Shown: one piece after another, positions 19,157-22,392 of the stretch
How positions within the stretch are numbered: the first letter of the stretch is position 1
Layout of the letters: each line of letters opens with the position of its first letter
Origin: an uncultured Granulosicoccaceae bacterium
GTDB taxonomy: Bacteria; Pseudomonadota; Gammaproteobacteria; Granulosicoccales; Granulosicoccaceae
DNA: 64,000 bases
Direction of reading: 5' to 3'
NCBI GenBank assembly: GCA_937927895.1
Contig: CALGKA010000018.1
Span: 62,001-126,000, forward strand
Made by a program: the position numbers and the translations under genes
Notes under the pieces: generated by a model
The model's input: the letters and a program-made list of their open reading frames with translations, nothing else
Told to the model about the DNA's origin: nothing
Database searches by the model: none

Positions 19157-20122
19157 TTGATGCGAACCAAAATTAAAATTGGTGGTGAAACGCGGGGTGG
19201 TGCTGGCAGTTTGCTTGTGGACAATAACGAGCCTACATTGCTAGACAATGTTGCCCGTTATTTTAGAAGTAAGTATAAGTCAGTGAGAGAACTGAGCGAT
19301 GCTGAGTTTCTTTCAATGTTCGATATACCCGCAGTAAGCTCTTCGTTGAATAACGGCTACAACCTCAGGTCAACAAAAGCGTTTGTGGCTCACTTTCAAG
19401 ATCGAGTAGATAGCGAGTGGTTGCAAGCACCTGCGTATTTAGCAGATCTTGGGTTTAATACGGATCATTGTAGTGAAGAAGAATTAATAGCCCGTGCAGA
19501 TCAAGTGCTGAACTATGATCTAGATTGGAGTGGGGTTCCTCCAGAGCTGAGCTGCGGTGGTGAAATTGACTGGCAAAAGAATATTCTTGAGAACAAAGAA
19601 TGGTTAGCGCGTTTAAATCGCCATAGCTGGTGGCCGTTACTAGGGCGTGCCTATCAACTCACCGGTGATGAGCGTTATGCCATGGCTTTTTCACGCCAGC
19701 TCTCAACCTGGGTGGCTAATCTTCAACATCTGGAGTCTACTGATGAGACGGTGTGGTCTTGCAAGCAAGTAGCTCTTCGGCTTCGTGTCAGCTGGATTCC
19801 AGCATTTGGAATGTTTTATAGCTCACCGTACTTTAATACTTCAAGAAAGCTTGAGATGTTAAGAGCAATATTTGATCAGGCGCGTTTTTTAAAGCAACAA
19901 AAAACCAGTGACAACTTATTGTTTAACGGCGGCTTAGTCTGTGCGGGAATGTCATTCCCGGAACTGCGTGAATCTAAAGGATGGCGCAAAGCTGCGATTG
20001 ATCGCTGTTGGGCGAGTTTGCGAACGGCTAATAAGCATAATGCAGAAGTTGAAAACATTGATTTTAAACATTCAAGCAATCTTCTCGCTTTCAGTGATCG
20101 AGAGTTGGCCACTGCCTGCTAG
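19157..20122 (+). pseudogene. Truncated heparinase II/III-like (alginate lyase-like N-terminal domain) gene remnant
   Basis: N-terminal alpha-toroid-like sequence (IDWQKNILENKEWLARLNRHSWWPLLGRAYQLTGDERYAMAFSRQLSTWV…LRLRVSWIPAFGMFY…NLLFNGGLVCAGMSFPE) stops just after VENIDFKHSSNLLAFSDRELATAC*; no C-terminal domain in any frame before the next gene end at 20311. Confidence 0.7.
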
Positions 20123-20284
20123 CTAGTGCCCATCCATAAACAGCGCGTAGCGAGGTTGTCTCAAGCGCGTGAGATTTGCCTACCATACATAGGCGTTTAG
20201 TCATTCTAAATAACTATATATGGTCGGCGAAAGATCACGCATCCTGGGTGGTCCGCAGTAGTGTTGTTTATGGATGGGCACTAG
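20123..20284. mobile_element. MITE-like non-autonomous element, 162 bp, 22-bp terminal inverted repeats with one mismatch
   Basis: Left ctagtgcccatccataaacagc (20123-20144); right gttgtttatggatgggcactag (20263-20284) = reverse complement of ctagtgcccatccataaacaac. Outermost CTAG is palindromic and could be a target duplication. Confidence 0.75.
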
Positions 20285-20310: not shown

Positions 20311-22392
20311 TTAGTTTAGGCGTTTAATTTCATTAAACGCCAATTTCATTTGCCCCGCCATTTGTTGATGATGGCGTGGGTCACTTCCCTCTGAAGCGTA
20401 CATTCCACGCTGGTAGCTGTGTACTATGGCGCGCAGTTGTTGTGAATAGTTCGGCCATTTTTTGCATGCTCGTTCAATATAGTTTGAATGAGTCTCGGCT
20501 GGGTTTTTGTTAAGGCCGAAGCGCGCCAATTTATTACACAACACATTCCATTGTTTTTCGCATGGCTTTAGCTTTTGTCGCTGTAGCTCTGAAAGTGGCT
20601 TGAGAATGATAAGAGCCCATACAACAGCTGCTAAAATAAACGCAATAACTATCATTAAGGCGCTGGGCTTTTCAATGCCAAGCTTTTTCCATATGGCCTG
20701 TTGCTTTGACGAATCAAAATCAATGATCATTTTTTGCCAGGCAAAGTTGATTTTGTCCCACTGTAAGCTCGCAGCACTTAACATGGGCAGTTCTAGTCTT
20801 TCCAAATAACTTTGTGATAGATCATTACCTAGTACATCACTTAACCCTTGTTCAACGCGCTGAGGCGCTACAGCAGATGTTGGGTCATAGCGTATCCAGT
20901 GGCCACCGATGTATGCTTCAGCCCATGCGTGTGCATCGGATTGTCGCACTATCATATAGCCTGCATTCATTTTGCCACCCTGGTAGCCGGTTACGACTCT
21001 TGCTGGAATGCCTGCCGCTCGTAACATAAAAACAAAACTGCCAGCGTAGTGTTCACAAAAGCCACTGCGTGTATTGAAAATAAATTCATCTATAGAATGG
21101 TTGCCTAGTTGCGGTGGATTCAACGTGTAGTGAAACGCCTCTTGGTTAAACCATTGCAAAATAGCCTCGGCTACGTCTGCGTTATCGTTGTATTTGGCTC
21201 GTAACTTACGGGCGAATGATTGGGCTTTCGGATTCGTTGTGGTAGTCAGTAGGTTTGTGCTGTCAGGTGCACGGCTTGGTTTGAAGCGGTCACTGATTGT
21301 TGATTTGGCCGTGTAGCGCAGCGGTTGATCAATAATATTTGCAGTGTTTATTTGCAGTTCATCGTTAACGCTTATCAGTAGCTTGGGGTTGTTGATGGCT
21401 ACCGGTGTTTCTGATGGTGTGTCGAGCGCTAACAACCATGGCTGATAGCTTGCTGGTTGGGTGATGGTGTATTCAATTTTGCGACCACTAACCGATACGC
21501 TGCCAGGGTTGTTGTGCCTTGGCAGTGCAAACCAATCGTGCCCGTCAAAGCCGGTTAAAACCGGTCCCCGCCAGTAGCGCTGATGGGGAAGTGGTGGTGT
21601 ATTTTTAAACTCAACACGAAAAGCGACTTCATTAGATTTTGATAAAGAGGCAATGCTACCTGGTGACATTCGTGAAGATAAACCAGTCTGTGCTTGTCCG
21701 TCGTTATTGCCATTGCCGAATCCGTTCATTGGTGCTTGTGAGATCCTGGGTACCACGACGAATAATAGTGCGGCAATTGGCATGGCCTGCAGGAATAGTG
21801 TTGATGTCATATGTACCATGGTGCGGGTATCAGTTTTTATAGCACCACGTTGCAAAGCAAAAAGTGATAAACCAATAAAGTACATTGCTGGTATAGATAA
21901 AATTGCGGCAAACAGTGATTGTTTAAAGAAAAACTGAGTGAGCAGTAGGAACGCGCAAAGAATAATCAGCAGGCTTGCATCATAAGCGCGCTTTGTTTCA
22001 ACGAACTTAAACCCTAGTAGCAAATATAAAAACGCTACACAGGGATCACGCCCGAAAATATGGCCATAGTGGAAGAACACTGCAATGACTGCCACTAACA
22101 CAAAAATAATAGTAAGGGCAGGGGGTAGGCTGAATTGGTGCCTGGGGTGTAGAAAAGTTTTTGCAAGAACTAATGCAATACCTGGAATAGTCAGCCACAA
22201 CGGAAAATGTATTAACAAGGGCAACTGTGAAAGAAACACAGTGATACCCAAAATGCGCAGCGTCTGGCTAGTGAGTGGCGGGCTCGCTTTGCTGGCGCGC
22301 TTGTCCTTATTGGCCGCCTTTGCAGTGGTTCTTATAAACACTATTCTGCAGCTGGTTTGGGTGATGTAAAAGCGGCCAATGCGCGCAGACAC
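20311..22392 (-). CDS. TgpA-like transglutaminase with N-terminal DUF3488-type membrane region and C-terminal DUF4129-like region
   Basis: Multi-TM N-terminus; catalytic SGFCEHYAGSFVFMLRAAGIPARVVTGYQGGK…SDAHAWAEAYIGGHWIRYDPTS. Confidence 0.93.
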   Translation of the reverse strand: MSARIGRFYITQTSCRIVFIRTTAKAANKDKRASKASPPLTSQTLRILGITVFLSQLPLLIHFPLWLTIPGIALVLAKTFLHPRHQFSLPPALTIIFVLVAVIAVFFHYGHIFGRDPCVAFLYLLLGFKFVETKRAYDASLLIILCAFLLLTQFFFKQSLFAAILSIPAMYFIGLSLFALQRGAIKTDTRTMVHMTSTLFLQAMPIAALLFVVVPRISQAPMNGFGNGNNDGQAQTGLSSRMSPGSIASLSKSNEVAFRVEFKNTPPLPHQRYWRGPVLTGFDGHDWFALPRHNNPGSVSVSGRKIEYTITQPASYQPWLLALDTPSETPVAINNPKLLISVNDELQINTANIIDQPLRYTAKSTISDRFKPSRAPDSTNLLTTTTNPKAQSFARKLRAKYNDNADVAEAILQWFNQEAFHYTLNPPQLGNHSIDEFIFNTRSGFCEHYAGSFVFMLRAAGIPARVVTGYQGGKMNAGYMIVRQSDAHAWAEAYIGGHWIRYDPTSAVAPQRVEQGLSDVLGNDLSQSYLERLELPMLSAASLQWDKINFAWQKMIIDFDSSKQQAIWKKLGIEKPSALMIVIAFILAAVVWALIILKPLSELQRQKLKPCEKQWNVLCNKLARFGLNKNPAETHSNYIERACKKWPNYSQQLRAIVHSYQRGMYASEGSDPRHHQQMAGQMKLAFNEIKRLN

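Follow-up and report, generated by a model that had tools for sequence, protein, structure and literature searches.

Long-hairpin MITEs of bacteria, such as Correia, ERIC, RUP and MITEAba12, are short, non-coding, intergenic and dispersed elements that are bounded by terminal inverted repeats (TIRs) and mobilised in trans. Among insertion sequences (IS), ISDol1 creates a target duplication of 6-7 bp. ISDol1 and IS1202 are both named subfamilies of ISNCY (PMC8147514), and the IS1202 family has a TnsB-like transposase and duplications of either 3-5 bp or more than 15 bp, some members lying near dif sites (PMC10132070). In the literature on the ends reported here, on ISDol1 and on ISNCY MITEs we found no description of the present element, and the AB1 genome paper (PMC5041132) mentions neither MITEs nor transposases.

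We propose that an element in the window, the whole 64,000-nucleotide stretch of DNA analysed here, is a MITE, a non-autonomous DNA transposon belonging to the ISNCY-family IS defined by NF033593, which are known although few studies deal with them; to this reading we give a probability of roughly 0.93. The MITE family is new and of a kind already known. The original prediction had placed at 20123-20284 a 162-bp MITE-like element with near-perfect 22-bp inverted ends and no internal ORF. An inverted-end search confirmed these ends as CTAGTGCCCATCCATAAACAGC (20123-20144, + strand) and CTAGTGCCCATCCATAAACAAC (20263-20284, - strand) with 1 mismatch in 22, and no further copy of them occurs within the window, where 100 shuffles expect none even at 3 mismatches. 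The absence of an internal ORF was likewise borne out, the only frames within or across the element being spurious ones of 24-47 aa. Furthermore, the original prediction had proposed a search for copies elsewhere in the genome, for an IS with matching ends and for empty sites in relatives, and all three were found, which supports its reading of the element as a MITE.

The genome is that of an uncultured marine bacterium, a 4.55-Mb draft of 168 contigs that is 92.6% complete. Within it the 17-bp end has 168 matches at up to 2 mismatches, and the reversed control pattern has none. The draft yielded at least 57 distinct complete copies, the majority 156-158 bp long and some shortened to 62-69 bp, and a DNA search in which 40 of 117 candidates were scored listed 44 or more that are near-full-length, with identities of 79-100%. 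Mean identity among the copies is 88%, so the family has not undergone a very recent burst and recent activity is not evident. Matches to the MITE were present in 15 of the 57 genomes in the search of relatives, chiefly in the same genus, and a plasmid search returned nothing.

Identical 6-mers stand on both sides of 32 of the 57 copies (TAGCTA in 20, TAATTA in 10 and TAGTTA in 2), a number that none of 10,000 shuffles of the flank pairings reached (expected 16.1 +/- 2.7), and a 7-base flank match occurs in none of the 57. TARYTA is the 6-bp target duplication of the MITE, replacing the YTAR-type 4-bp duplication first suggested. As the flanks outside GTGCCC...GGGCAC agree over 6 bases at most, the element itself is 20126-20281; the inverted ends of the predicted 162-bp stretch therefore stand and its boundary does not, the outer CTA/TAG belonging to the target duplication. 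The locus is composed as follows:

20126..20281, no strand: MITE proper, 156 bp, GTGCCC...GGGCAC, beginning GTGCCCATCCATAAAC; defined by the 6-bp direct repeats flanking 57 copies
20126..20144, + strand: left terminal inverted repeat GTGCCCATCCATAAACAGC, from the inverted-end search; an end common to ISNCY-family IS elements
20263..20281, - strand: right terminal inverted repeat GTGCCCATCCATAAACAAC, from the inverted-end search
20120..20125, no strand: left target duplication copy TAGCTA, in which TAG (20120-20122) serves the upstream gene as stop codon
20282..20287, no strand: right target duplication copy TAGTTA, with 1 mismatch to the left copy (5/6 matching)
19157..20122, + strand: intact gene for a heparinase II/III N-terminal domain protein (PF16889), 321 aa, with the same length and C-terminus in relatives G007 and G008
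20311..22392, - strand: convergent neighbour, TgpA / transglutaminase-core protein (PF11992, PF01841)

The CTAG or TTAA-like motifs at the ends and the palindromic form of many targets would also suit a MITE whose parent IS makes a shorter duplication (IS630-like TA or IS5-like YTAR), the longer match then being target preference only. We regard this as scarcely tenable, given that the repeats are identical across 6 bases even where they are non-palindromic, as for TAGTTA (L024, L087 and the IS of G012) and for CAATTA, CAGCTA and GAGCTA in full-length IS, and that the parent transposase is NF033593, the IS5_1 model scoring just 107 against a cut-off of 275.

Abutting copies have a single TAGCTA or TAATTA in common, which fits a copy using the edge of an earlier insertion as its target. 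Arrays of 2-3 abutting MITE copies sharing one TARYTA lie at L082 1831-2190, L081 2425-2909 and L086 7455-7774, and the tandem joint in C92 has the 10-bp TAGCTTGCTA in place of TARYTA. Solo ends preceded by TAGCTA, with the partner end missing and ordinary genes adjoining, occur in this genome (G000) at L103 4145, L108 3700, L113 3812 and L093 7555; these are half-elements whose other side has been lost. Near one MITE copy, a stretch of ~290 bp (L085 1316-1604, G000:C78) has matches at dozens of positions across G003, G006 and G007 and is apparently another dispersed repeat family.

Empty orthologous sites were seen at three loci, those of the window copy (G007 and G008), the C44 copy (G008) and the C78 copy (G007). 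At the window locus both relatives align at 75-76% identity with the element absent, the left match reaching query position 1521/1522 and the right resuming at 1724/1731 with 23-29 bases between, a divergence too large for the pre-insertion hexamer to be read directly. In these relatives the convergent genes are just 8-9 bp apart. The heparinase-domain gene had been called truncated in the original prediction; its orthologues in G007 and G008 also have 321 aa, ending ...FSDRELATAC* without the element, and the gene is therefore whole, with the TAG of the target as its stop codon. By this comparison the element landed on the stop codon and left the gene undamaged. TARYTA opens with a stop triplet on either strand, so that insertion at a gene end can leave the gene whole, as at this locus.

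The sequence from 20126 to 20281 is an imperfect palindrome along its full length, and in folding all 162 bp are spanned by a single imperfect hairpin (-85 kcal/mol, z = -11, equalled by 0 of 200 shuffles). Across 32 non-redundant copies, 93.9% of cells at the 47 consensus pairs can pair, against 88.2% when shuffled and 34-48% when slid, and compensatory changes in 19 of the 47 pairs exceed all 500 shuffles, the hairpin sequences forming a few subtypes, so that independent compensatory events are fewer than these counts imply. This pattern, drawn from aligned copies, supports a real hairpin and does not distinguish an RNA from a DNA function. The long hairpin, its compensatory pairs and its position between convergent genes could also describe a conserved structural RNA or bidirectional terminator held there by selection, an explanation we consider highly improbable, since the element is dispersed in many copies with target duplications, the orthologous sites in relatives are unoccupied and an Rfam search with the element gave no match. 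Nor is there a T-run at the element end, the sole terminator-like hairpin (20319-20341) lying outside it, and the copies occupy tandem (23), convergent (14) and divergent (8) gene contexts, the excess of convergent over divergent being not significant (14 vs 8, p = 0.29). As the origin of the element, an RNA or terminator is refuted.

The source of the ends was sought by scanning GTDB genomes for TARYTAGTGCCCATCCAKAAAC. Vreelandella rituensis (L159) carries a 1682-bp element whose ends match exactly, with TAGCTA on either side and a single 464-aa ORF, which is the ISNCY transposase NF033593 (E 1.2e-128; 430 (429.6) bits against a cut-off of 325) and contains a PF01609 DDE_Tnp_1 domain. Full-length IS of 1664-1684 bp with the ends of the MITE are present in the same genus (G012, duplication TAGTTA; G010, ends matching and flanks differing), in the same family (G057, with CAGCTA, TAGCTA and GAGCTA; G068, with CAATTA) and in Vreelandella, NF033593 being above its cut-off in 4 genomes of the family; in the full-length IS of G010 and L169 TARYTA differs between the two sides. 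The G012 IS and a MITE copy are immediate neighbours, with a single TAGTTA between them that both share. The parent, which the original prediction left unassigned, can now be given as the NF033593 IS because the ends and 6-bp duplications are equal, and it possibly belongs to the ISDol1 group of ISfinder. Resemblance between MITE and IS is confined to the ends, the interior of the MITE being unrelated and no obvious deletion product of the IS.

A full-length ISNCY element at L174 1-1700 (DFBZ01000075.1) is followed by one common TAACTA, after which a further element with the same end begins, indicating that full-length IS make tandems of the MITE type. On an IMG/VR viral contig (L262 13936, + strand) the IS left end is followed by the opening of an ISNCY-like transposase frame (MRQERTVQGSIFDLFAEHEIG), and this contig is a possible vehicle for spread.

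No NF033593 transposase scored above the cut-off in the MITE's own genome (G000), an absence that is provisional in a draft 92.6% complete, and the two weak matches there are other transposases, one of 483 aa and one a short fragment, without these ends. No full-length parent lies between paired ends in this genome, and the solo ends adjoin ordinary host genes and no transposases. The mobiliser is thus non-resident in the assembled part of the genome, which bears on present mobility and not on ancestry, a cognate transposase being no defining feature of a MITE.

The full-length hairpin and the two full-length PF01797 Y1 genes of the genome, one ~1 kb from a copy, might instead suggest a REP/BIME-type palindrome moved on single-stranded DNA by a Y1 (RAYT) transposase. 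Such a reading is barely credible in view of the 6-bp target duplications and of the DDE-transposase IS that carry the same ends; moreover, the REP-like palindrome flanking the Y1 gene close to the C13 copy is a different one. An association with Y1, considered from a decayed Y1-like stretch beside the C112 solo end and the two Y1 genes, was dropped, these ends being missing. The second, unrelated palindrome, GGAAACCCACAAGCGT-AGCGTGGGACT, recurs at several places (L100 712-733 and 834-855 (G000:C13), L113 and L085), and at L100 two copies in opposite orientation adjoin the gene for a 321-aa Y1 transposase (907-1872), in an arrangement resembling a REP/RAYT pair.

Copy number, ends, duplications, empty sites and matching parents are, at the level of sequence, established for the MITE, and we infer that an ISNCY transposase mobilises it in trans. 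In this model a full-length IS would supply the DDE transposase, which would bind the inverted ends of ~16-20 bp, GTGCCCATCCAKAAAC, and excise or copy the element. A palindromic target centred on ARYT would be cut with a stagger, and joining of the element there would yield the 6-bp duplication, which is TARYTA in this genome and NARYTA in some full-length IS. An intact target left at the edge of the insertion would allow a second copy to insert, producing a tandem with one common TARYTA.

Of the 45 copies flanked by enough sequence, none falls within a predicted gene, whereas 94 of 168 unoccupied TARYTA sites in the sampled sequence do (p = 5e-14). The target overlaps a stop codon in 15 of the 45, and among unoccupied sites outside genes in 10 of 74 (p = 0.019); these counts are suggestive only, as the genes are ORF-based predictions. 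Selection against intragenic copies is the likeliest explanation of the first result, and the stop-codon excess may in part be target preference. A search for copies that split genes gave three short, non-credible joined frames only. We consider it conceivable, and on balance unlikely, that the ARYT-centred target steers insertions to stop codons, such that the gene is kept and its mRNA gains a long conserved hairpin as its 3' end, the compensatory changes then reflecting selection on the RNA or on a hairpin DNA intermediate; this would account for the many lineages in which these ends have captured unrelated hairpins. Should the stop-codon bias and repeated hairpin capture be upheld, the family provides a natural test of the reason for which so many bacterial MITEs are palindromes over their whole length.

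In Desulfobacterales, Spongiibacteraceae, Algicola, Cellvibrionales, Sulfidibacter and others, these ends and flanking TARYTA enclose elements of 100-209 bp with interiors unlike that of the window element, and unrelated interiors within the same ends suggest repeated MITE birth. The interior of the window element is also found in Alteromonadaceae DT_4, including GGCGTTTAGTCATTC at the hairpin tip, and weakly in Oceanospirillaceae DT_75. The simplest reading of these sequences would be several independent MITE origins with some spread between orders.

A previously unassigned dispersed repeat is now linked with one particular transposase, one target and one length of duplication, and ends and a target are defined for an ISNCY lineage hitherto 'not characterised yet'. 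It would also account for the draft genomes of the genus breaking at MITE repeats. Compared with known systems, the element has the terminal inverted repeats and 6-bp duplication of ISNCY-family IS of the NF033593 (transpos_ISNCY_1) type, whereas it lacks a transposase gene and has an unrelated interior. The IS1202 family, once under the ISNCY heading too, has a DDE transposase of ~440-460 aa, and differs from the present system with its 6 bp at TARYTA and a PF01609 parent transposase. REP/BIME elements with RAYT are likewise multi-copy intergenic hairpins, but have no target duplications and depend on Y1, not DDE, chemistry. Finally, Correia, ERIC, RUP and MITEAba12 share the general features of the element, and are set apart, on present knowledge, in their ends, target and parent family.
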